The notes beneath the pieces are model-generated. The model had not been told where the DNA came from. It did no database searches and saw only the letters and a program-made list of their open reading frames with translations. Made by a program: the position numbers and the translations under genes. Shown here in pieces: positions 12,383 through 44,340 of a stretch of 64,000 nucleotides of DNA (positions are counted from its first letter, which is position 1; the number at the start of each line of letters is the position of its first letter). Source of the DNA: Clostridia bacterium (GTDB taxonomy: Bacteria > Bacillota > Clostridia > Lachnospirales > Lachnospiraceae); NCBI GenBank assembly GCA_029101305.1, contig JAQXQS010000194.1, positions 16,279 through 80,278 of the forward strand, read 5' to 3'.

Positions 12383-14275
12383 TCAAAGATTCTTCACAAA
12401 CAAGGTACGGATGGCATTCAGCACTGCAAGCACCATTACTCCCACATCTGCAAAAATCGCAACCCACATGTTTGCTATACCAAGCGCTCCAAGCACCAGG
12501 CAGATCAGCTTGACTCCGATTGCAAAATAAATATTCTCGTATACAATACGCATACATTTTTTCGCTATACGGATTGCTTTGGCAATCTTAACAGGATCAT
12601 CATCCATAAGCACCACATCCGCTGCTTCAATCGCAGCATCAGAACCAAGGGCACCCATGGCAATTCCTACATCTGCTCTTGAAAGAACCGGTGCATCATT
12701 GATTCCATCACCAACAAAGACAAGCTTCTCTTTCTCCTGCTTATTTGCCAGCAGCTCCTCAACCTTGGAAACCTTATCTGCCGGAAGAAGCTCACTGTGC
12801 ACTTCCCCGATTCCAAGCTCTGCTGCCACTGCCTCTGCCACCTTCTTCGAATCACCGGTAAGCATAACGGTCTTGGCAATACCTGCTTTCTTCAGATTCT
12901 CTATCGCCTCTTTAGCATGCGGCTTAACAATATCGGAAATCAGAATGTGACCTGCATATTTTCCATCCACAGCCATATGCACAACCGTTCCTACATGATG
13001 GCACTCTTTATATGCAATACCAAGGCGGTTCATCAGCTTGGTATTACCTGCTGCAACCTGTACTCCATCTACTTTTGCAACAACACCATTTCCGCCGATT
13101 TCTTCAATATCCGTCACACGGTTACGGTCAATGGGCTTCCCATATGCTTTCTGAAGGCTTTTGCTGATGGGATGGGAAGAGGAACACTCTGCATAAGCTG
13201 CATATTCCAGCAGCTTCTCGTCTTCCATCTCGTTATGATGGATGCCGCTTACCTCGAAAACGCCCTTTGTCATAGTTCCAGTTTTATCGAATACCACGAT
13301 TTTTGCCTGGGAAAGGGTTTCCAGATAGTTGGAGCCTTTTACCAGGACTCCCTGGTTGCTGGCACCACCGATTCCTGCAAAAAAGCTAAGCGGAATACTG
13401 ATCACAAGAGCACACGGGCAACTGATTACCAGGAACGTAAGGGCACGGTAGATCCAGTCTCCCCACTCTGGGGAAAGCCCCATAAACAACATTCTGCAAA
13501 GTGGCGGCAACACTGCAAGCGCCAAGGCGCTGTAGCAGACAGCCGGTGTATAATACTTGGCAAATTTGGAAATAAAGTTCTCAGATCTGGATTTCTTGGA
13601 ACTGGAATTCTCTACCAGATCCAGGATCTTGGAAACTGTGGACTCCCCAAATTCCTTTGTGGTACGGATTTTCAGCACACCTGTCATATTGATGCATCCA
13701 CTGATGACCTCTTCTCCAGCACGCGCATCTCTTGGAAGGCTCTCTCCGGTCAGGGCACTGGTGTTTAAAGTAGAGGTTCCTTCTTCTATGATTCCATCAA
13801 TCGGAACCTTTTCTCCCGGCTGAACCACAATGACAGTTCCAACTTCCACTTCATCCGGATCCACTTTTTCCAGCTTGCCATCCTGCTCAATGTTCGCATA
13901 ATCCGGACGGATGTCCATCAACTCACTGATATTTCTCCTGCTCTTTCCAACTGCATAGCTCTGGAAAAGCTCACCGATCTGATAAAACAGCATAACCGCT
14001 GTACCTTCCTGGTAATCCCCAAGAGCAATCGCTCCAATAGTGGCAACTGCCATCAGAAAGTTTTCATCAAATACCTGCCGGTTCTTAATTCCCTTAAATG
14101 CTTTTTTCAGAATGTCATAACCGATCACCAGATATGGGATCATGTACAATGCCATTCTAAAATAGCCTTCTACAGGAATAAAATGCAAAAGAACCAGAAG
14201 TACTATGGTAACAATGATTCTGACCAGAACTTTTTTCTGCTTCTTATTCATACTTTTACACATGCCCTGGGGCAT
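12383..14275 (-). CDS. Zn/Cd/Pb-type P1B heavy-metal ATPase (CadA/ZntA-like) without its own HMA domain
   Basis: About 630 residues. It shows the P-type ATPase core: TGES phosphatase loop (LTGESLPRDA), the CPC membrane motif (SCPCALVISIP), the phosphorylation site DKTGTMTKG, HP in SSSHPIS, and the hinge [14 protein letters not shown]. The CPCALV context and the ArsR-type regulator point to Zn2+/Cd2+/Pb2+ export rather than copper. There is no N-terminal metal-binding domain here; a separate HMA protein is encoded just upstream (14518-14736). The start is uncertain: AGGAGG is only two bases from the ATG at 14275, and in-frame ATGs follow at 14263 and 14251. Confidence 0.93.
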   Translation of the reverse strand: MPQGMCKSMNKKQKKVLVRIIVTIVLLVLLHFIPVEGYFRMALYMIPYLVIGYDILKKAFKGIKNRQVFDENFLMAVATIGAIALGDYQEGTAVMLFYQIGELFQSYAVGKSRRNISELMDIRPDYANIEQDGKLEKVDPDEVEVGTVIVVQPGEKVPIDGIIEEGTSTLNTSALTGESLPRDARAGEEVISGCINMTGVLKIRTTKEFGESTVSKILDLVENSSSKKSRSENFISKFAKYYTPAVCYSALALAVLPPLCRMLFMGLSPEWGDWIYRALTFLVISCPCALVISIPLSFFAGIGGASNQGVLVKGSNYLETLSQAKIVVFDKTGTMTKGVFEVSGIHHNEMEDEKLLEYAAYAECSSSHPISKSLQKAYGKPIDRNRVTDIEEIGGNGVVAKVDGVQVAAGNTKLMNRLGIAYKECHHVGTVVHMAVDGKYAGHILISDIVKPHAKEAIENLKKAGIAKTVMLTGDSKKVAEAVAAELGIGEVHSELLPADKVSKVEELLANKQEKEKLVFVGDGINDAPVLSRADVGIAMGALGSDAAIEAADVVLMDDDPVKIAKAIRIAKKCMRIVYENIYFAIGVKLICLVLGALGIANMWVAIFADVGVMVLAVLNAIRTLFVKNL

Positions 14276-14434
14276 GGCCTCCTTTTTGTATATTTGTAAC
14301 TATCAGGCCCGGCATTTGTCTTTGCTTTAATCCAGGCATTGTTCTGAGCTTTCGTCCAAATTTTCCGCTCTCATACTGCAGCAATCCGCTTCTTTGATAC
14401 AATTACGGATTCTGGCTGCAATGTCCAGACAGCC

Positions 14435-14460
14435 TAAAGCGTGTTTGAAAAAAGCTCTGG
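14435..14460 (+). repeat. Dispersed repeat family A, copy 2
   Basis: AAAGCGTGTTTGAAAAAAGC followed by TCTGG, in the 240-base gap between the HMA protein gene and the ATPase gene. Nothing else recognisable is in that gap. Confidence 0.6.
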
Positions 14461-14517
14461 AGCCTGGAGCACTGCAGCTTTTCTTCTTATTACTATCGCT
14501 GTATCCAGCATTTTTTC

Positions 14518-14736
14518 TTATAAGAAGATTTCGCAGTCATCCTCCACCTTCTTACAGTTCTTCAGAACTTCCTGCATAACACTCTTCGGCTCCTGTCCAT
14601 CTTCAAACTCAACGATCATCTTCAGAGTCATGAAGTTCACAGTTGCATCCTTCACACCAGCTGTGTTCTTAGCAGCTTCCTCCATCTTGTTTGCACAGTT
14701 CGCACAGTCAACGTCGAGTTTGTAAGTTTTTTTCAT
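14518..14736 (-). CDS. Stand-alone HMA-domain metal-binding protein
   Basis: A 72-residue protein with a single ferredoxin-like HMA fold: MKKTYKLDVDCANCANKM carries the Cys-x2-Cys metal site (DCANC), and the C-terminus is DDCEIFL. It is the detached N-terminal domain or chaperone of the Zn/Cd ATPase encoded downstream. The frame opens at 14814, but the ATG at 14736 has AAGGAGA at good spacing. It is the first gene after the ArsR-type operator. Confidence 0.88.
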   Translation of the reverse strand: MKKTYKLDVDCANCANKMEEAAKNTAGVKDATVNFMTLKMIVEFEDGQEPKSVMQEVLKNCKKVEDDCEIFL

Positions 14737-14771
14737 GGTAGTGATCTCCTTTTTGAAAATGTTCTCTTTTT

Positions 14772-14793
14772 CATATGAACAATTATTCATATG
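14772..14793. promoter_or_regulatory. SmtB/ArsR-type operator
   Basis: CATATGAACAATTATTCATATG is palindromic at 20 of 22 positions and contains the TGAA-n6-TTCA core of SmtB/CzrA/ZiaR operators. It lies at about +3 to +24 relative to the predicted start, so bound repressor would block transcription. Confidence 0.8.
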
Positions 14794-14802
14794 TTTGTTT
14801 CT

Positions 14803-14830
14803 ATTATAGCACACAGTTTCATTCTGTCAA
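14803..14830 (-). promoter_or_regulatory. Predicted promoter of the HMA-ATPase-arsR cluster
   Basis: TTGACA (14825-14830), 16 bases, then an extended -10 TGCTATAAT (TATAAT at 14803-14808) on the minus strand. Both hexamers are perfect matches. Confidence 0.8.
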
Positions 14831-14989
14831 TAGTTTTTGGACAAAATGCTTTTGATAAAATGATATCATGATTTTTTACTTTTTACTCTATTCAATTCTT
14901 ACATTTTCATGTATAATAGACCAGATTAGTTCTTATACATATTATTATCCGAAGATAATAAACCTTAATACAACCAAAGGAGATCAACC

Positions 14990-33911: not shown

Positions 33912-34568
33912 TCAATCTTTTGTTTCTTCTGTTGTATCCTCTGCAGCCTTTTCATCTGCTGTATTTGCAGCTTCTTCTTTGGCATCAGAAGCTTCTTCAC
34001 CTTCTTCCTCACCGATCACAACTGCATTTTTCTCTTCCTCAGTCTGCTCTTTTGCATCTGTAACGCTTACCTTATGGTCGTACCATTTGCCCTTTGTACC
34101 AAGGATTGCAAGATCAAACTCCTCATCCAGTTTTTCCACCGGAATATTAAATCCATAAACCTCCTCAGAGATTCCATCACTGTAAGTTACAGTATCTGTA
34201 GTTGGTGCGATCAGCTTAGCGCCGTCTTTCTGGGCATCTTCTGCTGTTCCAAGGAAAAGGTTTACGATGTTCTTGGAAACAAGGCTGATATGAACGGTCA
34301 TTTTGCCATCCTTAACAGTAAGAGTGGCTCTGCCATTGCAGGCCTCATTCACATGGAACATACCGCTGTCTGTATCAAACTCTACACCATATACACCGTC
34401 TTCCAGCTCACTGTCTGTGCTGTCTGCATCCTTGGAGTCTTCTGCTGCCTCTGTTGTCTCGGTATTCTCTTCTGTGACTTCTGTCTCTGCCCATACTGGA
34501 GCAACTGTCCCTACTGTCATGGCAGACATGCTTACTGCAGTTAATAAAACAACTAATGAACGCTTCAT
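33912..34568 (-). CDS. Secreted protein with one NEAT-like beta domain
   Basis: 218 residues: a signal peptide ending near TVAPVWA|E, an acidic linker (26-55), a beta-rich domain (about 55-170) and an acidic, Ala/Glu-rich tail. The domain runs DGVYGVEFDTDSG...ATLTVKDGKMTVHISL...LFLGTAEDA...YGFNIPVEKLDEEF...KWYDHKVSV. This resembles NEAT haem-binding domains in outline, but the family is not certain. The same LFLGT-xxxA and F-x-[IM]P pattern recurs four times in the 1323-residue protein at 36675-40646. It lies downstream of the exported CbiK gene and may share its cobalamin-riboswitch transcript. No LPxTG, lipobox or membrane anchor is visible. Confidence 0.7.
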   Translation of the reverse strand: MKRSLVVLLTAVSMSAMTVGTVAPVWAETEVTEENTETTEAAEDSKDADSTDSELEDGVYGVEFDTDSGMFHVNEACNGRATLTVKDGKMTVHISLVSKNIVNLFLGTAEDAQKDGAKLIAPTTDTVTYSDGISEEVYGFNIPVEKLDEEFDLAILGTKGKWYDHKVSVTDAKEQTEEEKNAVVIGEEEGEEASDAKEEAANTADEKAAEDTTEETKD

Positions 34569-34663
34569 AATAATTCTCCTTTTTATTTTTCATTTTGAAA
34601 CTCTTTAGAACCAACCGAAAAATTTCGATTCCATCAGTGACATATACCCGTCCCATATATTTC

Positions 34664-34683
34664 TGGCTCTGAACAGTTACAAA
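34664..34683. repeat. Dispersed repeat family B, right-end copy
   Basis: TGGCTCTGAACAGTTAC matches the right end of the 32173-32317 element. The preceding 60 bases (from about 34607, GAACCAACC...) look like a diverged left half. It separates cbiK from the 218-residue protein gene. Confidence 0.7.
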
Positions 34684-34785
34684 TGATATTGCTCAAACAG
34701 CTGCTTCGGAAACACGCTTCACAATTCACATGCTCCAACAGCAGCTGTCCAAGTTCTTATTTTTCTAAAGCATCAATTATCCTGA

Positions 34786-36054
34786 TTATTTCGCAATTGA
34801 ATCAATAGCAGCCTGTGTATGTGCTACATACAGATCCTCAACTGCAGCGATTCTTCCAAGACCTGCGATCTGGCAGTCAATGCTGTCAAATTCTCCGGAA
34901 GCCTCGAACATGCTCTTCCAGGAATCGTCATCATCACCAGCCATATCGTTGTTTGCATGGTCACCAGCAACAACCATCAACGGACGAAGAACAACTTTCT
35001 TGAATCCGGCATCTTTTACTTTATTGATAACTTCCTCACAAGCAGTATCCTCTGGCTCACCTTCTACAGTACCGATAAATGCGTTTGTGAAACCAAGCTC
35101 ATTCATCTGTGTCTGCATCTGGTCATAAGTAACATTTGCTCCATGAGAAGTTCCATGTCCCATGAATACAAATGCTGTTCCATCTTCTGCAGCTGCTTCC
35201 ATGCTGTCATATCCAGCTTCTTTTACAGCTTCATCTGTGATTGCCTGTGCAACAGCAGCCTTGTCATCGTTGATAACAGTAGCGTCATCTCCAACCTCAC
35301 CAAGCATTGGCTCAGCGATTGCTACAGACTCAAATTTATCTTTATACTCATCAATAGCTTCTACCATCTCATCGTACTCAGCGCCATGCATAAGGTGTGT
35401 AGGCTGAACAACCAGATTCTTAACACCGTTTGCTACTGCACGGTCAAGTGCCTGCTGCATGTTATCAATTGCCTCATCATCTCTTGCCTGTACATGGTTG
35501 ATGATGATCTGAGCGGTAAATGCTCTTCTTACAGACCAATCCGGGAATGCATCTGCAAGTTTATCCTCGATTCCTTTGATGTCCTCTGCACGGCTGTCAT
35601 TGAAGGAAGTACCAAAGCTTACTACAAGAAGCTCATTCTCACCGATCTCATCCTGGTTACGAGGATCATCTTTGGAAGCATCACCTGTGTCACGTCCGAA
35701 ATACTCTGGGCTTGCTTCTTCGCCTTCTACCAGCTCTTTCTGTGCATCTGTAAGAGCATCCCATGCTTCTTTTGCTTCTTTGCACTGTGCATCTGTGTCG
35801 TCATTTCTTTCCTGAACATAGATGGCATCAATAAGAGCTGCAACTTTATCTGCTGCTTCCTTGTCTGCATCAGCAGTATCATCTGTTGCTTCTGCATCAT
35901 CTGCTGCCTCAGCATCGTCAGTAGCCTCAGCGTCATCTGCTGTCTCCTCAGTTGCTTCTTCTGTCTCTGCAAATGCAACAGATCCTGTTGCTACAGTCAT
36001 GCTTGCAGCCATGGAAGTTGCAAGAAGCAGTGCTAATAAAGTTTTTCTTTTCAT
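34786..36054 (-). CDS. cbiK: Exported anaerobic cobalt chelatase CbiK-type protein
   Basis: 422 residues: a Sec signal peptide (MKRKTLLALLLATSMAASM, cleavage near AFA|ETEE), an acidic linker (30-66), a helical segment (67-112, AWDALTDAQKELVEG), then the chelatase domain (about 140-422). The chelatase motifs are LLVVSFGTSFNDSRAEDI, VVQPTHLMHGAEYDEM (His220), FMGHGTSHGANVTY (His300/His304) and LRPLMVVAGDHANNDMAGDD, the CbiK signature. CbiK inserts Co2+ into sirohydrochlorin, normally in the cytoplasm; exported forms are known in Desulfovibrio. The frame opens at 36099, but the ATG at 36054, after AGAGGAAAAAG, starts the signal peptide. The gene lies behind a cobalamin riboswitch. Confidence 0.9.
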   Translation of the reverse strand: MKRKTLLALLLATSMAASMTVATGSVAFAETEEATEETADDAEATDDAEAADDAEATDDTADADKEAADKVAALIDAIYVQERNDDTDAQCKEAKEAWDALTDAQKELVEGEEASPEYFGRDTGDASKDDPRNQDEIGENELLVVSFGTSFNDSRAEDIKGIEDKLADAFPDWSVRRAFTAQIIINHVQARDDEAIDNMQQALDRAVANGVKNLVVQPTHLMHGAEYDEMVEAIDEYKDKFESVAIAEPMLGEVGDDATVINDDKAAVAQAITDEAVKEAGYDSMEAAAEDGTAFVFMGHGTSHGANVTYDQMQTQMNELGFTNAFIGTVEGEPEDTACEEVINKVKDAGFKKVVLRPLMVVAGDHANNDMAGDDDDSWKSMFEASGEFDSIDCQIAGLGRIAAVEDLYVAHTQAAIDSIAK

Positions 36055-36136
36055 TTCTTTTTCCTCTTTTTTCCTGTATTTCCGGATTGAATCATGCATA
36101 AGGATCCCGCCCTACAGGGCCTTTTATGTATAAACA

Positions 36137-36165
36137 TAAAAAGCAGCCACATTTCTGCAGCTGCA
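36137..36165 (-). terminator. Possible riboswitch-linked terminator upstream of cbiK
   Basis: On the minus strand GCAGC and GCTGC pair around a 12-base loop, followed by TTTTTATG. It lies between the cobalamin aptamer and the cbiK start, so it may be the expression platform. A small GCCCTGTAGGGC hairpin follows nearer the ribosome site. Confidence 0.6.
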
Positions 36166-36224
36166 CCTTCCTCATAAACACATCTCCTGAAAACAGGACT
36201 TCTATGTATTGCTATGAGAATACA

Positions 36225-36410
36225 GGTTCTGTGTACCGCAGACCTAAGATTCCACGCCAAGGCAGTTCTCCTGACTTCGATCAACACTGCTCCCCCTTCC
36301 CTTTTTGGTGGGCTCTGAAGCAGCTCCCTTACACAGTGACGGCATCGTTCCGGATTCACACCAGATTCTCTTTTGCGCATCATGTCCATGATGCAACCTT
36401 CGCGCTATAA
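36225..36410 (-). ncRNA. Cobalamin riboswitch upstream of cbiK
   Basis: Minus-strand signatures are AAAAGAGAATCTGGTGTGAA followed by TCCGG (about 36350-36375), CCGTCACTGTGTAAGGGAG in the core, and the B12 box AAGTCAGGAGAACTGCC (36261-36277). Order and spacing match the cobalamin riboswitch class. By class, binding of adenosyl- or aquo-cobalamin should switch off expression of the exported CbiK. Confidence 0.92.
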
Positions 36411-36412
36411 CG

Positions 36413-36435
36413 ATTATACATATTCGACTCGGATA
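36413..36435 (-). promoter_or_regulatory. Predicted promoter of the cobalamin riboswitch
   Basis: TATAAT at 36413-36418 (minus) with a weak TTAACT-like -35 sixteen bases upstream. The adjacent 150 bases (36440-36590) are very AT-rich, with no other signal seen. Confidence 0.5.
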
Positions 36436-36593
36436 GTTAATAGATACCATATTTTTATGTATTTTTTTTGAATAAATTATGTATTTTTTATGAATTAGGG
36501 TCAAATTTCTACATTTTATCTTTTAAATAAGTAACTGGCAAATATACAACTTTTATACGCCAAAATGTGGCACTTTTTTCATCTAACATAGTC

Positions 36594-36639
36594 TAAAAAA
36601 ATGATCTGCAACCCATCAACAGGTTACAGACCATTTTTC
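36594..36639. terminator. Terminator of the 1323-residue surface protein gene
   Basis: On the minus strand AAATGGTCTGTAACC pairs with GGGTTGCAGATCATTT around a short loop, followed by seven T. It lies about 40 bases after the stop codon. Confidence 0.85.
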
Positions 36640-36674
36640 TCACTCAGGACTTCTTAATCATCCATCGTCCCTTA

Positions 36675-39600
36675 TTATTTTTTAATTTTAATTGTGATTG
36701 TTGCTTTCTTGTTTGTTCCGTCAAGAGATCTGACAGTAATCTTCACTGTACCTTTCTTTCCTTTGAATGTTTTTACAACACCATTGGAAGATACCGTTGC
36801 AAGCTTGGTATTGCTGGAGCTCCATGCAACCTTTTTATTTGCATTCTTGGTTGCAGTCACCTTTGCTTTCAGTTTCAGGCTCTTACCAGCTTTTACGGTC
36901 TTATTTCCGGAAATCGCAAGCTTCTTAACATAACCTTTGGTGCAGGTCAGCTTAATGGATCCATATACCTTGCTGCCGTCTTTTGCGGTTGCTGTGATAA
37001 CAACGCTCTTTCCGCCAGCTTTCTTCTTCATGGTTACAACACCATTTGCATTTACAGTTGCAACCTTGGTATTGCTGGATTTCCAGGTAACTGCCTTGTT
37101 TGCTGCATTAGCAGGAGCTGTTTTTACCTGAAGCTGTACTTTCTTGCCTGCTGCTATCTTCGTGGAAGTCTTAGCACTTAAGGTTACCTTGGTAACCAGA
37201 ATCGGAAGTGCCGGAATTGTCTTCTGGGCTACCAGGATTTCTCCGCATACGGAGCATTTCTTTCCCTCTGTCAGACCGGTATGTCCCTGGGTAGCCGGAA
37301 CTGCCGGAATCACAACCTCTTTGTGGCCAGTTGCTTTCACTAATTTACGTGCTTTCAGAATTGTACCGCATACAGAGCACTTCTTGCCTTCACTCCAGCC
37401 ATCCTTGGTACAGGTTGCTGCGATTGCCGGAAGAATTTCTTCCTTATGACCAAGTGCCGGAATCACTTCCTGGGCTTTTATGATTTCTCCGCAAACGGAG
37501 CACTTGATACCTTCGGTAAGTCCGGTTCTGGTGCAGGTTGCTGCTTTTGCTGGAAGTGTTTCATAGGTGTGGACTGCGATCTGGCACTCTGCCTTAAATT
37601 CACCAGTTACAGCTGTGATCGTTGCCTTTCCTTCTGCTACAGCTGTTACGGTACCATCTTCTGCTACTGTCAGCACCTTTTCATCGCTGCTTGTCCAGGT
37701 AACATCCCGATAAGTTGCATTTGCAGGCTCTACGCTGGCAACAAGGACTACTTTGCTACCTGCATCCAGAGTCGTCTCTGTCTGATCCAGTTTGATACCT
37801 GTGGTCTTAATGTATTTCTGTAATTTTCCAGAACTGAATGTGATTGTCTGCTGTGTCCATTTCTTTCTTGCTGTTGCATAAGAGCTGAATGTAATCTCAT
37901 TTGCAAAACCACTGATCGGCATAGTGAACTGGTATGCCTCAGTTTTTCCATCACTGCTAGTAACTAATTCCCCGTTATTATCTGGAAGAATCATGTTTGG
38001 ATCATCATCTGCTGCTTTCTTTGCTGCACTGGATGTTCCAAGGAAAAGTTTTCCATATGCCTTACTGCTTCCAATGAAACGGGCTTTTGCTACACCATTT
38101 TCTACAATGATCTTAAGGTCCAGAACATCCATACCTTTGTTTGTAACCGTTGCCTCTGATAAATATTCTCCATCTTCAACAAGCTTCAGCTCATTCAGAG
38201 CAGCTTTGATAGCAGCAGCCTGCTCATCTCTTTTTGCAAAATCTTTTCCATCTGGATCTGCTGCTGAAACAGCTGCTTTTACTTTTTCGGCAGACTCTGC
38301 AGTATATAATGATAAATCAGAAGGAACTTCTTTTAAAGCAGCCTTCAAATCATCCTTTTTGAAAACAACATTTACAGTGTTTCCGTCTTCTTTACGGTCA
38401 ATTTTGCCAGTATATTCCCATTCTCCAGTTGGAGTAAATGTGTACTGATTTCCATTTCTTACACCAGTCACTGTATAGTAACCATCACGTACAACCTTAA
38501 TCGTATAAGTCTTGGTCGCATCGAGTTCTTCGAACTCAAGCATAGTCTTGGAATCTGCAACTGCCTGAACTACATTTCCCTCTTCATCTGTAGCGGTTGC
38601 AACTACGTCTGTGATATTCTTGGTCTGTGCAGTACCATTTGCAAGCAGTGCCTGAATGGTGTATGTGAAAGTCTTTTTCACAACTGTAACCGTACAGTTA
38701 GCACTTACATTACCAGCTGTTACTGTGATCACAGCAGTTCCTGCTCCCACAGCCGTCACCTTACCATCTGTTACAGTGGCAACCTTTTCGTCACTGCTGC
38801 TCCATACAATAGCATCACTTGTGTCTGCCGGTGTTACGGTAGCTGTCAGATCAAAGCTCTCGCCTTCAATCAGTTCTTTTGCATCTACATCCAGCTTCAC
38901 CTCTGTTGCAGGTTTATGAGCTACCACTTTTACAGTTCCGTTTTTCTTGCTGACTGTAAATACGCGCTCATACCATGCCTTATTCTTTACAGAATAGAAG
39001 GATAAAACAACCGGTTTTTCTAAATAATTCAGAATAGTAGCACCACCAGTTGCATTCTCTTTCATCAGTACAGAAGCCTTTTTATCGGTAATCGGAATTG
39101 TACTCTCTGCCTTAGCTGCTTCTTCTGCACTTCCTACATAAATTGCACTAAAACTGGTGCTTCCCATTGTAAGTTCCAGTGTTTCTTTATAACCATTGGA
39201 GTTCGGACCACCAACTGTATGTAAAGATGCATTGGAAATAGTGAACATTTTCACCTTATTATCCACACTTAAAGATACTGTATGATCAAAGTCACCAGCA
39301 GTCAGCGTCTTTGCACTATAATCAATCACTACCTGGCGTGGATAAAATACCTTATCTATCGTAGCAGTTCCATCATCATAATTTTTCAGCTTGTTTTTGG
39401 AAATAGAAACCAGGCTAAGCTTGGTCTCGCCATCAGAAACCGGAATTTCAAACTGATAACCAGCTTCTGTCTTCTCAAACTTTATCCAGTTATCTCTGTT
39501 ATTTCCGTTAGCAACAGCATCTTCATAAGTGCCTTTAAACAGATATTCATATCCTGTGCTGCTAAGTGTAAGAAGAAGCTTCTGTCCACTTTCGGATTTC

Positions 39601-40646
39601 TGAAGGACAGCTTTAGTCACTTTGAACATTCCAGTTGTATTGGTAACTGCGAGTTCAGTAGTTTCTACTGGAACTACTTTCAGTACCAGCGCTTTCACTG
39701 CTGCATTCAGATTCTCTGCCATTTTATCTACTTCAGCCTGTTTATCCTTGGCCAAATCTCGTACAATGGCATCCTTCGCTGCTGTTACAGCTGCTACGGA
39801 TTCGTCTGTATAAACAGACAGGTCAGCTGGAATTGCTGCAATGGCTGCATCTACTGCAGTATAGTCTGCTTTTTCTGTAACCGTAGCCGGTAAAATATTA
39901 ATGTCGGAAGATACCGCCGGACTTTCAGTTGATTCCTTTAATGAGGAGATATCAAATGTCAAAGTCTGAATTTTGCTAAATGTCTTACCTGAAATAACAT
40001 TCCCATCCTGTACATAATCTCCTTTAATCATGCAAAAATGTAATGTATCATTCAATGACGTCAACGGAATTGTAAACCAATGATCATCTTCTCCATTTCC
40101 TTTATACCATGGCACAGCATGCGAATTTGCAACATTTGGATCATCTGTAAGTGCAAGAATCTCTCTATTATGACTTGTCTGATGCATTCTTACAAGATAA
40201 GTTCCATCACTTTGCAACGTAACAATCACACTGTCCATTGCATACATTCCACCTACATTGCCATCTGAATTAAGGACTTGTACTGTAGCCGAATAAGCTT
40301 TTCCTACTATAGTATCCTCTGCATTCTTAAGTTCATCTGTTGCACTTTCCTCCAGACCAGATAAAAAACCAGCTTCTTCTCCGTCAGAAAAACCAGCAAT
40401 CTCATCCATTCCGGTCTCTTCATTGTCCACAGTGCCTTCTACTTCACCTGTGTACACGTCACCAATCTCTGCTGGTGTTTCATCTGTAATAAACTGCTCG
40501 CCCTCCTGCGAATCTGCAGTTTCCCAAACATCTGAGAATCCATTTTCTTCTGCTTCTGCGCTAACCGTAAGTGCAGCAGCCGGGGAACCTACTGTCATGG
40601 TAGCAGCAAGAAGCAGTGCTAAAATCTTTGTTCTTCTTTGCTTCAT
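36675..40646 (-). CDS. Giant secreted surface protein with four NEAT-like domains and Big_2 repeats
   Basis: 1323 residues: a signal peptide (MKQRRTKILALLLAATMTV...), an acidic stretch to about 100, then four related beta domains (about 115-245, 330-455, 460-575 and 855-975). Each carries variants of [LFY]-x-G-[ST]-xxxA and F-x-[IM]P. Helical FIVAR-like segments lie between them (DAAIAAIPADLSVYTDESV; ALKEVPSDLSLYTAESAEK). Big_2 Ig-like domains (VTWTSSDEKVLTV; TWKSSNTKVATVNANG; AWSSSNTKLATVSSNG) and three Cys-x2-Cys KCSVCG repeats with GHKE spacers follow. It ends in Big_2 with no sortase motif. It is probably a cell-wall associated ligand-binding or adhesive protein. The four-domain kinship with the 218-residue protein next to cbiK suggests a shared ligand, possibly a tetrapyrrole; that is inference. 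Confidence 0.8.
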   Translation of the reverse strand: MKQRRTKILALLLAATMTVGSPAAALTVSAEAEENGFSDVWETADSQEGEQFITDETPAEIGDVYTGEVEGTVDNEETGMDEIAGFSDGEEAGFLSGLEESATDELKNAEDTIVGKAYSATVQVLNSDGNVGGMYAMDSVIVTLQSDGTYLVRMHQTSHNREILALTDDPNVANSHAVPWYKGNGEDDHWFTIPLTSLNDTLHFCMIKGDYVQDGNVISGKTFSKIQTLTFDISSLKESTESPAVSSDINILPATVTEKADYTAVDAAIAAIPADLSVYTDESVAAVTAAKDAIVRDLAKDKQAEVDKMAENLNAAVKALVLKVVPVETTELAVTNTTGMFKVTKAVLQKSESGQKLLLTLSSTGYEYLFKGTYEDAVANGNNRDNWIKFEKTEAGYQFEIPVSDGETKLSLVSISKNKLKNYDDGTATIDKVFYPRQVVIDYSAKTLTAGDFDHTVSLSVDNKVKMFTISNASLHTVGGPNSNGYKETLELTMGSTSFSAIYVGSAEEAAKAESTIPITDKKASVLMKENATGGATILNYLEKPVVLSFYSVKNKAWYERVFTVSKKNGTVKVVAHKPATEVKLDVDAKELIEGESFDLTATVTPADTSDAIVWSSSDEKVATVTDGKVTAVGAGTAVITVTAGNVSANCTVTVVKKTFTYTIQALLANGTAQTKNITDVVATATDEEGNVVQAVADSKTMLEFEELDATKTYTIKVVRDGYYTVTGVRNGNQYTFTPTGEWEYTGKIDRKEDGNTVNVVFKKDDLKAALKEVPSDLSLYTAESAEKVKAAVSAADPDGKDFAKRDEQAAAIKAALNELKLVEDGEYLSEATVTNKGMDVLDLKIIVENGVAKARFIGSSKAYGKLFLGTSSAAKKAADDDPNMILPDNNGELVTSSDGKTEAYQFTMPISGFANEITFSSYATARKKWTQQTITFSSGKLQKYIKTTGIKLDQTETTLDAGSKVVLVASVEPANATYRDVTWTSSDEKVLTVAEDGTVTAVAEGKATITAVTGEFKAECQIAVHTYETLPAKAATCTRTGLTEGIKCSVCGEIIKAQEVIPALGHKEEILPAIAATCTKDGWSEGKKCSVCGTILKARKLVKATGHKEVVIPAVPATQGHTGLTEGKKCSVCGEILVAQKTIPALPILVTKVTLSAKTSTKIAAGKKVQLQVKTAPANAANKAVTWKSSNTKVATVNANGVVTMKKKAGGKSVVITATAKDGSKVYGSIKLTCTKGYVKKLAISGNKTVKAGKSLKLKAKVTATKNANKKVAWSSSNTKLATVSSNGVVKTFKGKKGTVKITVRSLDGTNKKATITIKIKK

Positions 40647-40661
40647 TTTTCTCCTCCTTCA

Positions 40662-40689
40662 TAAAAAAAGCCCTCTTATTATAAGAGGG
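40662..40689 (-). terminator. Terminator hairpin in the leader of the giant surface protein gene
   Basis: On the minus strand CCCTCTTAT and ATAAGAGGG form a hairpin followed by seven T, ending just before the AAGGAGGAG ribosome site. Such placement implies attenuation controlled by the 200-nt leader. Confidence 0.8.
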
Positions 40690-40890
40690 TACGTTAAAAG
40701 ATAATGCATTCCATAAAGTCTTTCAAACAAACTTATGATTCGTGCATTAACAATTTAATGTAAGCCATAACGCCCCTGAGATACCGCCTACATTATAAGA
40801 CACCTTTAAAAAGACCCGACTTTACGGTGGCAAGGACGCCGCTGCGGAAATAAACCGCATTCCATTTAAACGCGCTTTTTTTGTCTTTAT
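40690..40890 (-). promoter_or_regulatory. Structured 5' leader of unknown class upstream of the giant surface protein
   Basis: The leader can form GCGG-TTTATTT-CCGC, GGC-GTCCTT-GCC, ACC...GGT and AATGTAGGC...GGCTTACATT stems before the terminator at 40662-40689. No B12 box, GEMM or other riboswitch core could be recognised. It could be an unassigned riboswitch or a protein-binding leader. Confidence 0.45.
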
Positions 40891-40891
40891 T

Positions 40892-40920
40892 ATCATACTA
40901 TAAATTTCCAGAAGAATCAA
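40892..40920 (-). promoter_or_regulatory. Predicted promoter of the giant surface protein leader
   Basis: TTGATT (40915-40920), a 17-base spacer and TATGAT (40892-40897) on the minus strand. Confidence 0.6.
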
Positions 40921-40949: not shown

Positions 40950-40978
40950 TTGACAAATACCCCTTAGGGGTATATATT
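40950..40978 (+). promoter_or_regulatory. Predicted csoR-copA promoter
   Basis: TTGACA (40950-40955), 17 bases and TATATT (40973-40978). The first CsoR-type operator fills the spacer exactly. Confidence 0.75.
40957..40973. promoter_or_regulatory. CsoR-type copper operator 1
   Basis: ATACCCC-TTA-GGGGTAT, a perfect inverted repeat lying between -35 and -10. Confidence 0.8.
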
Positions 40979-40993
40979 ATTCTTGTATTTCAG

Positions 40994-41010
40994 ATACCCC
41001 ACAGGGGTAT
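40994..41010. promoter_or_regulatory. CsoR-type copper operator 2
   Basis: ATACCCC-ACA-GGGGTAT, the same inverted repeat as operator 1, 37 bp downstream (centre to centre) and past the transcription start. Confidence 0.8.
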
Positions 41011-41124
41011 TTAATACTTTTACCTACTAACAACCGCCGAGAAATGTATCTCTCATATATGTCAGACTACGCTTCCCGTCAGGTTCATTTACTATAATAT
41101 CTACCATTAGAAAGGAGTCTGCCT

Positions 41125-41490
41125 ATGCCAGCCAATCATACAGTTTCCTCCCAAGTCGAGGAAGCCAACCCCTCCCAAGCTTCCTCCCAGCAGGTCTGTT
41201 CCTGCTGCTGCACCAAGCACACCGACCGCACCGAAGCCGAACGCAAGAAGCTTGTCAACCGCCTGAAGCGTATTGAAGGCCAGATAAGGGGCATTATAGG
41301 AATGCTGGAGAATGATGCTTACTGTAACGACATCCTGATCCAGTCTGCCGCAGTCAATGCTGCTGTGAATGCCTTTAATAAAGAACTTCTTGCCAACCAT
41401 ATCCGCACCTGCGTTGCCAGGGACATCCGGGAGGGAAAGGACGAGACCATCGATGAGCTGGTTGCAACATTGCAGAAATTAATGAAATGA
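41125..41490 (+). CDS. csoR: CsoR family copper-sensing repressor
   Basis: A 121-residue all-helical regulator of the CsoR/RcnR family (RLKRIEGQIRGIIGMLENDAYCNDIL). The copper ligand pattern Cys-x(n)-His-x3-Cys is present: Cys in AYCND, His and Cys in LLANHIRTC. An N-terminal extension with CSCCCTKH may add metal sites. Copper binding should release it from the twin operators upstream and derepress copA. GGAG precedes the ATG by seven bases. It is the first gene of the csoR-copA operon. Confidence 0.92.
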   Translation: MPANHTVSSQVEEANPSQASSQQVCSCCCTKHTDRTEAERKKLVNRLKRIEGQIRGIIGMLENDAYCNDILIQSAAVNAAVNAFNKELLANHIRTCVARDIREGKDETIDELVATLQKLMK

Positions 41491-41497
41491 GATACCA

Positions 41498-41556
41498 GGA
41501 TGGCAAAGGGAAATGTTATTCGTGCTTGCACGAAAAGACATTTCACCTTGCCATCC
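41498..41556 (+). other. Intercistronic hairpin 1
   Basis: GGATGGCAA (41498-41506) pairs with TTGCCATCC (41548-41556), with inner AAATGT/ACATTT and apical CGTGC-TT-GCACG stems. There is no T-run, so it is not a plain terminator. Confidence 0.75.
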
Positions 41557-41558
41557 GC

Positions 41559-41612
41559 CACACATGAGGAAGTAGCGATTTACGAAGTAAATCAGCGGAT
41601 TCCTCATGTGTG
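41559..41612 (+). other. Intercistronic hairpin 2
   Basis: CACACATGAGGAA (41559-41571) pairs perfectly with TTCCTCATGTGTG (41600-41612); apical GATTTAC-GAA-GTAAATC. Confidence 0.8.
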
Positions 41613-41614
41613 CA

Positions 41615-41647
41615 GGACTGCGGGAACACGTATGTGCGAAGCAGTCC
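41615..41647 (+). other. Intercistronic hairpin 3
   Basis: GGACTGC (41615-41621) pairs with GCAGTCC (41641-41647), with an inner ACA-CGTA-TGT. It ends 20 bases before the copA ribosome site. Confidence 0.7.
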
Positions 41648-41685
41648 GTAGGTATCGGAGTAGCTTATAGAAGGAGGAATTTATT

Positions 41686-44340
41686 ATGGAACAATACAAC
41701 GTCACCGGCATGAGCTGTGCAGCCTGCAGCGCCCGTGTAGAAAAAGCCGTAAACAAGGTTCCCGGCGTTACATCCTGCTCGGTCAGCCTGCTTACCAATT
41801 CCATGGGCGTAGAAGGAACTGCCACAGCTTCTGCCATTATCTCTGCCGTAGAAGAAGCCGGATACGGCTGCAGCCTTAAAGGAGCCGCCGGCCAGAAGGA
41901 ATCCGTTTCCGATGCAGAGAAGGCCCTGGAGGATCATGAGACCCCCATTCTTAAGAAGCGTCTCATCGCATCCGTAGGCTTTCTCCTGGTACTTATGTAC
42001 TTCTCCATGGGGCACATGATGTGGGGCTGGCCTCTTCCCGCCTGGTTTAATGACAACCACATCGCCATGGGACTGGTCCAGCTGCTTCTCGCCGGAATCG
42101 TCATGGTCATCAACCAGAAATTTTTCATCAGCGGTTTCAAAAGCCTGTGGCACCGCTCTCCCAACATGGACACCCTGGTAGCCCTTGGCTCCATGGCATC
42201 CTTTGTATGGAGTGTTTACGCATTATTTGCCATGACAAGAGCCCAGGTAGACGGCAATTCAGAGCTTGTCATGCACTACATGATGGAATTTTACTTTGAG
42301 TCCGCAGCTATGATCCTGACTCTGATCACCGTTGGAAAAATGCTGGAAGCCCGCTCCAAAGGAAAAACCACCGATGCCCTGAAGGGTCTTATGAAGCTTG
42401 CCCCAAAGACAGCTGTTGTCATCCGGAATGGACAGGAAACTACCGTTCCCATCGACCAGGTGGTAAAAGGTGATGTCTTCGTGGTACGCCCTGGGGAAAA
42501 CATTCCGGTTGACGGCGTGATCATAGAAGGTTCCAGTGCCGTTAATGAATCCGCTCTCACCGGAGAAAGTATCCCCGTAGACAAAGCAGCCGGAGATCTT
42601 GTCTCTGCAGCCACCGTAAACCAGTCCGGTTTCATTAAATGCGAAGCCACCCGTGTTGGTGAGGACACTACCCTCTCCCAGATCATCAAAATGGTCAGTG
42701 ATGCCGCTGCCACCAAAGCTCCCATTGCCAAAATCGCAGACCGCGTTTCCGGAGTTTTCGTACCAGCTGTTATCACCATTGCCATTGTTACCACCATTAT
42801 CTGGCTGCTCACCGGCCATGAATTTGGATATGCCCTTGCAAGAGGAATTTCCGTACTTGTGATCAGCTGCCCCTGTGCCCTTGGCCTTGCTACCCCGGTA
42901 GCCATTATGGTTGGAAATGGAATGGGCGCCAAAAACGGTATTCTTTTTAAAACCGCAGTTTCCCTTGAGGAGGCTGGCAAGATCCAGATCGTTGCCCTTG
43001 ACAAAACCGGCACCATCACCAGTGGTCAGCCCCAGGTGACCGATATCCTTCCCGCTGACGGCGTATCTGAAAATGATCTTCTCACCTTCGCCTATGCCCT
43101 TGAGAAAAAAAGCGAGCATCCGCTTGCAAAAGCAGTTCTGGAAAAAGCTTCTGACCTTGGACTTTTGTCCCCTGATGTTACCAGCTTCCAGGCCCTTCCC
43201 GGAAATGGACTTTCTGCACAGCTTGGTACTTCCACTCTGATCGGAGGAAGCATGAAATACATCAGCACACTGGTATCTGTTTCCCCTGCCCTTCTCTCCC
43301 AGGCCGAAAAACTGGCAGAAGCAGGAAAAACGCCTCTCCTTTTTGCAAAGGATGGCAAGCTTCTTGGAATCATCGCAGTCGCTGATGTGATCAAACCAGA
43401 CAGTGCACAGGCTGTAAAAGAGCTGCAGAATATGGGAATCCACGTAGTTATGCTTACCGGTGATAACGAGCGCACAGCCAGGGCAATCGGTGCACAGGCT
43501 GGTGTAGACCAGGTTATCGCAGGTGTCCTCCCAGACGGAAAAGAAAGCGTCATCCGATCCCTGAAAGAAAAAGGCAAGGTTGCCATGGTAGGTGACGGTA
43601 TCAATGATGCACCTGCACTTACCAGAGCTGACATCGGCATTGCCATCGGTGCCGGAACAGATGTAGCCATTGACGCGGCAGATGTGGTTCTTATGAAAAG
43701 CCAGCTTTCTGATGTGCCTGCTGCCATCCGCCTTAGCCGCGCTACTCTCCGTAACATCCATGAGAATCTTTTCTGGGCATTCTTCTACAATGTGATCGGT
43801 ATTCCACTGGCAGCCGGTGTATGGATTCCGATTTTCGGCTGGACTTTAAACCCGATGTTTGGTGCCGCAGCTATGAGTCTTTCCAGCTTCTGCGTGGTTA
43901 CCAATGCACTGAGACTGAATCTGTTTAAGATTCATGACGCCACCAAAGATAAAAAGCTAAAAAAACAAGTCTCATTTGAACCAGTAAAAGAGACCGTTTC
44001 TGGCAAAAGTGTAAATAAAGATGTAAATAATAAAGAAACAGCTTCAACGATTAATAACAGTTGCCCGGTTTCCCGCAGCAACGATATTAATAACAATATT
44101 AACAAAAAGGAGAATGATACCATGGTTAAAGTAACAGTCAATGTAACAGGAATGATGTGTGGTCATTGTGAAGCACACGTAAACAAAGCAGTTCAGGAAG
44201 CATTCGGGGTACAGGATGTTGTTTCCTCCCACGATGCCGGAACCACTATTTTCACCGCACCGGAAAAAGTAGACGAAGAGAAAATCCGCCAGGTTATCAA
44301 AGACGCCGGATATGAAGTAACCGGCATCACACAGGAATAA
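41686..44340 (+). CDS. copA: Copper-exporting P1B ATPase with C-terminally fused CopZ domain
   Basis: 884 residues. An N-terminal HMA domain carries Cys11-x2-Cys14 (GMSCAAC). The ATPase core has TGES, the CPC motif (Cys395-Pro-Cys397, [11 protein letters not shown]), phosphorylation Asp439 (DKTGTIT), SEHPLA and [10 protein letters not shown]. It pumps Cu+ out of the cell. After the last membrane helices comes an Asn/Lys-rich linker (about 755-812), then a second HMA domain with Cys825-x2-Cys828 (GMMCGHC) that looks exactly like a stand-alone CopZ. An AAGGAG and ATG sit at the linker/domain junction. AGGAGG precedes the main ATG. Confidence 0.96.
44122..44340 (+). CDS. copZ: Copper chaperone CopZ, probable internal translation product of copA
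   Basis: A 72-residue HMA domain in the same frame as the 3' end of copA, beginning [22 protein letters not shown] at 44107-44112 with nine-base spacing to the ATG at 44122 is a good ribosome site, so a free chaperone may be made as well as the fused form. A free CopZ would deliver Cu+ to CopA and possibly to CsoR. Whether internal initiation occurs is inference from the ribosome site. Confidence 0.6.

Follow-up and report, generated by a model that had tools for sequence, protein, structure and literature searches.

An exported chelatase and NEAT-fold proteins behind cobalamin riboswitches probably capture B12 building blocks, add cobalt outside the cell and import them in many gut bacteria

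Tetrapyrrole precursor salvagers were defined by Shelton et al.; according to the accessible part of their paper, dependence on 5-aminolevulinic acid (ALA) was confirmed in three species, and no machinery for uptake of the ring is named there (PMC6461909). Precorrin-2 salvagers are put at 0.6% of genomes in a review. In Porphyromonas gingivalis, the steps to precorrin-2 are reported to be missing and the corrin pathway to be present (PMC6461909, accessible part), and a review describes FetB of the same species as a porphyrin chelatase acting outside the cytoplasm. Chelatases of the CbiK/X type are ATP-independent, as stated in PMC8123684. Here we analyse a locus in a stretch of 64,000 nt (hereafter the window) of Clostridia bacterium contig JAQXQS010000194.1, which encodes an exported CbiK-type chelatase (K), a small secreted protein downstream of it (N) and a large secreted protein upstream (P0003). 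All parts of the locus are on the minus strand, in the 5' to 3' order adenosylcobalamin (AdoCbl)-class riboswitch match, hairpin, P0003, cobalamin riboswitch, hairpin, K and N (Table 1). We propose that this B12-controlled exported set, found in many gut bacteria, probably captures B12 building blocks, adds cobalt to them outside the cell and imports them.

K has 422 aa when read from the ATG at 36054 (437 aa in the longest open frame). Its N-terminus resembles a signal peptide (MKRKTLLALLLATSMAASMTVATGSVAFA) and is followed by an acidic linker, in which 38 of the 104 residues (aa 32-135) are Asp or Glu. The Pfam CbiK model (PF06180) matches aa 142-417 with 246.7 bits, for a cut-off of 26.2, and residues H300, H366 and E226 correspond to H145, H207 and E89 of Salmonella CbiK, which we take to be the metal site of that enzyme. 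The motif around the equivalent residues is kept in all 83 exported sequences of our tree set. K is thus an exported chelatase with conserved catalytic residues, the activity of which is predicted. As it scores 201 bits against the NCBIfam sirohydrochlorin cobaltochelatase equivalog NF047852, below the cut-off of 400, we class it as a CbiK-type chelatase and not as that equivalog. The original prediction of a CbiK chelatase with a signal peptide and an acidic linker, encoded behind a cobalamin riboswitch, is borne out. A second CbiK, devoid of signal, is encoded on another contig of the window genome. On a tree of K (quick search, 46 of 108 inner branches unresolved), the exported state takes 3 changes and the HemC state 16; this tree was not used for any further conclusion.

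Other CbiK arrangements were noted along the way. In genome G161 (contig C2, 39285-40931), HemC and CbiK matches both fall in one 577-aa open frame, which is probably a HemC-CbiK fusion; many non-exported CbiK frames among relatives are also 557-573 aa long. A 1090-aa frame (L199:867-4136, plus strand) holds two tandem CbiK stretches plus an N domain.

N, described by the original prediction as a secreted protein of 218 residues with one NEAT-like domain, indeed carries a single domain (aa 55-165), and structure comparison assigns it to the NEAT fold rather than to an unrelated one. The four related copies initially read in the 1323-residue upstream protein were upheld in part, as three are confident and the fourth (aa 117-212) is weak. 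With Pfam NEAT (PF05031), N (our P0001) reaches 15.3 bits, below the cut-off of 32.8, and P0003 gives no match; because this cut-off is missed, we speak of NEAT-fold domains and not of Pfam NEAT members. A PDB sequence search with N alone returned one match, which we put down to chance. Heme-binding NEAT domains bear a YxxxY motif on the last strand, with a Tyr ligating heme. The consensus of the NEAT-fold domains studied here is devoid of YxxxY, which makes heme less likely as their ligand: A-type domains carry WYDHxV, and in the other alignment rows the Tyr column most often holds His.

Among relatives, a strong gene-by-gene match to P0003 near K was found only in L068 (383 bits). Three KCSVCG repeats with weak zinc-ribbon-like matches lie at aa 1046-1140 of P0003 (window 37227-37511) and are possibly metal-binding knuckles. 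In four loci (L114-L117), NEAT-repeat genes of 1301-1484 aa are found at a distance from K, each with a cobalamin riboswitch ahead; they form a separate, putatively B12-regulated NEAT-fold family. In three further cases (L112:3679-6189, minus strand; L084:4820-8284, minus strand; L120:11674-14283, plus strand), the C-terminal part of the NEAT-repeat protein resembles, by eye, the N-terminal half of the adjoining binding protein.

The relatives examined comprise 98 genomes, and the 80 named loci discussed below are the best 80 of 567 confirmed candidates. The usual operon in relatives consists of a riboswitch, K, N, a binding protein, a FecCD permease and an ATPase. K and N orthologues are mostly adjacent among the 98 genomes, and the genes downstream of the pair encode a Peripla_BP_2 binding protein, a FecCD permease and an ABC ATPase. 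N is present in 78 of the 80 named loci, at most 1.5 kb downstream of K in 75 of them, and the complete gene order is seen in 56 of the 70 named loci that offer 6 kb downstream. A single stop-free frame covers K and N in 28 of the 80, and N and the binding protein in 29. The expected co-occurrence in relatives is confirmed for K and N, and chance adjacency of K and N was rejected on the basis of the 78 loci and the fusions. A script found an export signal in 76 of the 80 named loci; of the other four, N precedes K in two, a signal-like stretch follows a GTG in one and the last is a K-K tandem. These loci come mainly from Lachnospiraceae, and also from Faecalibacterium, Gemmiger, Pseudoflavonifractor and one Spirochaetaceae metagenome-assembled genome; the named records with the system include Blautia, Faecalibacterium, Gemmiger, Butyrivibrio and Eubacterium ramulus.

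The window itself contains no importer, as originally reported, yet one is adjacent in most relatives and the window genome has one of the operon type on another contig (C169, locus L112), with its own cobalamin riboswitch ahead. The run is headed by an 836-aa protein with three NEAT-fold domain copies and scores over cut-off for Peripla_BP_2 (142.3 bits), FecCD (259.5 bits) and ABC_tran (101.2 bits). Compared with the NCBIfam equivalogs of the B12 importer BtuCDF, it gives 210.7 bits with the BtuC model, below the cut-off of 334. We infer that this transporter serves K. The importer ATPase has one of its best scores with a corrinoid ATPase model, and the binding protein weakly matches the heme protein IsdE. 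A link to corrin synthesis is suggested by seven long importer ATPases (hand-picked) that are fused to corrin enzymes, the partner being a CbiA-type synthase in four cases, CbiD in two and a tetrapyrrole methylase together with a methyltransferase in one. Similarly, in one HemC-negative genus, K, N and the importer run on the same strand into matches to CobU, CobS, CobC, CbiB, CobD, CbiC, CbiD, CbiF, CbiG and CbiH. More generally, cbi/cob genes lie downstream on the strand of K in 11 of 20 HemC-negative loci (upstream in none of the 20) and in 30 of the 80 named loci (upstream in 4), the stretches compared differing in length.

The riboswitch ahead of K passes its Rfam gathering score, and the same position is occupied by a cobalamin riboswitch in 20 of 20 close loci, in 9 of 9 HemC-negative loci scanned with Rfam and, using nhmmer, in 77 of the 80 named loci (all but L149, L180 and L199). 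These sets overlap, as some records count both as named loci and among the other genomes, and 9 of the 46 matches underlying the nhmmer profile came from the 20 HemC-negative loci; among these 20, nhmmer missed the riboswitch in L231. Eleven of 17 further sources also have a riboswitch ahead of K. Of the six misses, three (L097, L103 and L104) break off close to K at a contig end, two (L106 and L108) hold other CbiK copies, and L109 has N only. Cobalamin riboswitches are found as well ahead of NEAT-repeat genes without K nearby (L112, L114, L115, L116, L117, L120 and L121), about 2.3 kb ahead of the NEAT-repeat gene of L122, and ahead of the one beside K in L068, while none was found for the NEAT-repeat genes of L113 and L119.

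Cobalamin control had been attributed to only part of the locus. This holds for the riboswitch ahead of K but has to be extended, since P0003 is also preceded by a B12-class match (RF01482), which spans the full model (positions 1-149 of 149) with an E-value of 3.5e-7 in the 511 bases searched. As its score is under the Rfam gathering score (45.3 vs 50 bits), we call this element a probable AdoCbl-class riboswitch. A blastn search of the P0003 leader against the collected loci found no similar leader, and in L068 the only riboswitch in the region ahead of the P0003 match (14200-14960) points the opposite way. The evidence for B12 control of P0003 is thus confined to the window.

The distribution of the system was surveyed in 150 genera of the family, each represented by one genome at least 92% complete. 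Exported K occurs in 47 of 88 CbiD-positive genera and in none of 62 CbiD-negative ones (Fisher p 1.4e-14). Within CbiD-positive genera, it is found in 20 of 26 HemC-negative versus 27 of 62 HemC-positive genera (p 0.005), while non-exported CbiK shows the reverse, with 2 of 26 versus 52 of 62 (p 1.3e-11); as genera are related, all three p values overstate independence. CbiK was searched with a threshold of E 1e-20, so that weak or broken copies may escape. Exported K was first scored by a minimum of 380 bits, giving 48 genera, and 47 after flank reading moved G111 (no signal, no N) to the non-exported class, together with the second copy of G115 and with G132, G187, G146 and G220. Most non-exported CbiK were assigned by score, signals being looked for in seven. 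Visual inspection recognised signals in 19 of the 20 HemC-negative loci (the stretch read for L231 starts inside the protein), and a script did so in 19 of 20 HemC-positive loci (the exception being G111) plus the window, 7 more HemC-positive genomes being classed by score alone. N lies near K in all 20 HemC-negative loci, and 17 of them also have the binding protein nearby.

Among the 98 relatives, 11 are CbiD-positive and HemC-negative (ten of the genus of the window, plus G076 from another family), and 10 of the 11 have exported K, with a signal seen in 8 and 2 cut at a contig start. None of the 11 has HemB, CobA over cut-off, a non-exported CbiK, or a CbiX apart from K, while HemB and CobA are present in the 7 HemC-positive genomes of the same 18-genome test. 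In the relatives with K that lack HemB, HemC and CobA, no chelatase of the CbiK/CbiX type other than the exported protein was found. Of the ten, G042 (99% complete) has CbiL, CbiD, CbiF, CbiG, CbiH, CbiJ-E-T and CbiA. The ten relatives display the gene pattern of a precorrin-2-type salvager, with corrin genes kept and HemB, HemC and CobA absent (the corrin set being read in G042 only); the window genome does not belong to them, as it has HemB, HemC, CobA and a non-exported CbiK. The distribution points to corrin synthesis rather than to uptake of heme or of finished B12.

In relatives lacking HemB, HemC and CobA, a ring at roughly the level of sirohydrochlorin would be the only possible starting point for the corrin pathway. 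We give an even chance to the view that the system is B12-repressed and salvages tetrapyrrole precursors for corrin synthesis. The ligand, the extracellular cobalt insertion, the hand-over, the transport and the direction of regulation we infer as follows. When cobalamin is scarce, the riboswitches would permit expression, and NEAT-fold domains outside the membrane would capture a tetrapyrrole ring near the sirohydrochlorin stage. Exported CbiK, which could work outside the cell because enzymes of the CbiK/X type are ATP-independent, would then add cobalt. The cobalt-tetrapyrrole would pass to the BtuF/FecB-like binding protein and be imported through the FecCD permease and ATPase, and the resulting cobalt-factor II would join the corrin pathway at CbiL. 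In the window genome, with its own early genes, salvage would be a supplementary route. A more specific version, which we rate slightly below an even chance, is that cobalt insertion into a scavenged tetrapyrrole outside the cell is an early step of B12 synthesis. Exported CbiK would deliver cobalt-sirohydrochlorin to NEAT-fold domains specialised for corrins, one subtype of which has His in place of the heme-ligating Tyr of classical NEAT domains, and to a dedicated importer. Corrin synthesis would thereby be shared between gut bacteria at the level of sirohydrochlorin. The original prediction had suggested capture or metallation of tetrapyrroles or corrinoids outside the cell; the exported chelatase, the NEAT fold, the co-occurrence and the B12 control are in line with it, its statements on the importer and on the control of P0003 have been corrected, and the distribution adds probable salvage of corrin precursors.

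Several observations weigh against precursor salvage. Importer homology by itself fails to separate corrinoids, heme and precursors. HemC was the early tetrapyrrole gene scored in the 150-genus survey. Of the 19 HemC-positive loci with exported K that were read, 17 have N close by and 14 the binding protein; cbi/cob genes lie downstream of K in only 2 of these 19 and, among the first relatives, in 3 of 45 loci (again over stretches of different length). In nine HemC-positive genera, exported K is the only CbiK found, and 8 of these show no separate CbiX either; cobalt loading of home-made sirohydrochlorin in these nine does not fit the proposal. Similarly, two HemC-positive genomes among the close relatives, G021 and G056 (72% complete), have exported K only. 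Conversely, no CbiK is seen in the CbiD-positive, HemC-negative genera G127, G171, G202 and G214, nor in G003, and G146 and G220 have only a signal-less CbiK. Finally, exported K is present in G033 and G049 (78% and 77% complete), where no CbiD was found.

Among the alternatives, capture of finished corrinoids (B12 or cobamides) survives best, although we consider it unlikely. The NEAT-fold proteins would be surface corrinoid binders like BtuG/BtuH of Bacteroides and would feed a BtuFCD-type importer, while K would only bind corrinoids or tetrapyrroles. Such a function would agree with the cobalamin riboswitches, including those ahead of NEAT-repeat genes without nearby K, with the permease, whose best score (under cut-off) is to the BtuC model, and with the corrinoid ATPase score. 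However, exported K is absent from all 62 CbiD-negative genera, where B12 salvage would be most useful (K having been scored there, not N or the importer), and simple B12 uptake is put aside for this reason; in addition, the chelatase residues are conserved and exported K persists after HemC loss.

An Isd- or FetB-like role in acquiring heme or iron, in which K would remove or exchange the metal of heme, is very unlikely. It is put aside because of the riboswitches, which indicate control by cobalamin and not by iron, the confinement of the system to CbiD-positive genera and the corrin-enzyme fusions, to which the missing YxxxY can be added, despite the NEAT fold, the weak IsdE match and the fact that FetB, a heme-binding protein according to its PDB entry, is a close solved relative of K. 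Lastly, scavenging of cobalt, with K and its acidic linker binding Co2+ outside and passing it on and the ring being incidental, would agree with the linker, the corrin-synthesis link and the riboswitch control but leaves the NEAT-fold partners and the near absence of non-exported CbiK after HemC loss unaccounted for, and is the least probable of all.

Table 1. Positions of the parts of the locus in the 64,000-nt window.
Feature	Position	Strand	Score or basis
AdoCbl-class riboswitch match (RF01482), P0003 leader	40757-40890	-	45.3 bits, gathering 50
Terminator-like hairpin ahead of P0003 start codon	40671-40689	-	consensus scan
P0003, 1323-aa secreted protein, NEAT-fold domains and four Big_2 stretches	36675-40646	-	
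P0003 doubtful first domain copy, aa 117-212	40011-40298	-	E 1.4 in set search, 0.0019 alone
P0003 NEAT-fold copy, aa 329-425	39372-39662	-	E 1.6e-17
P0003 NEAT-like copy, aa 453-561	38964-39290	-	E 2.2e-12
P0003 NEAT-like copy, aa 823-933	37848-38180	-	E 1.8e-16
Cobalamin riboswitch (RF00174) ahead of K	36244-36416	-	74.3 bits, gathering 31.5
Terminator-like hairpin between riboswitch and K	36143-36164	-	consensus scan
K, exported CbiK-type chelatase, 422 aa: signal peptide, acidic linker, CbiK domain	34786-36054	-	
N, 218-aa secreted protein	33912-34568	-	
NEAT-fold domain of N, aa 55-165	34074-34406	-	structure comparison

Beyond P0003, frames resembling a copper ATPase and a CsoR-type regulator span 41125-44340 (judged by eye, without family scan). 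Two GC-rich palindromes (ATACCCC..GGGGTAT, 40957-41012) lie 5' of the plus-strand CsoR-like frame and probably belong to this unit rather than to P0003. A Clostridiales-1 RNA (RF01699, 106.4 bits) is located between the two frames, at 41490-41657, and a second one in locus L116 (13449-13630).

Precursor salvagers have been predicted from missing genes, and the operon provides a candidate uptake route for the tetrapyrrole ring that is genetically testable. If the proposal is true, it could explain how bacteria unable to make the ring may still make B12. The NEAT fold would then serve not just heme but probable corrin precursors as well, and a metal insertion step of biosynthesis would take place outside the cell. 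Imported rings would also have to be counted when B12 prototrophy is predicted from genomes.

Compared with described systems, the locus consists of known parts in a new arrangement. K has the same domain as the Salmonella cobaltochelatase CbiK (PDB 1qgo and 2xwp; E 5.4e-39), with the same His/Glu positions, but differs from it in being exported, in its acidic linker and NEAT-fold partners, and in scoring below the NF047852 equivalog cut-off. The Desulfovibrio chelatase 2xvx (E 1.7e-28) is also of the CbiK type and is presumably the periplasmic CbiK of this genus; we know of no link between it and NEAT-fold proteins, an importer or a riboswitch. Another CbiK-type relative is FetB (PDB 9b86; E 4e-37), for which, to our knowledge, neither NEAT-fold partners nor a cobalamin riboswitch are known, and which we take to be the P. 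gingivalis protein, in agreement with the review. Unlike K, FetB has been described with manganese and protoporphyrin. In our literature search, which left most subscription papers and preprints outside its coverage, no report joined CbiK with a NEAT domain, or CbiK with a cobalamin riboswitch and a signal peptide. Unlike Isd-type NEAT hemophores and Listeria Hbp2, the NEAT-fold proteins described here are associated with cobalamin instead of iron control, have no consensus YxxxY and are coupled to a chelatase and to corrin synthesis. Finally, the ten relatives with exported K resemble in gene content the tetrapyrrole precursor salvagers of Shelton et al., which, according to the accessible part of that study, retain the corrin pathway, have lost early tetrapyrrole genes and are mostly Firmicutes (PMC6461909).

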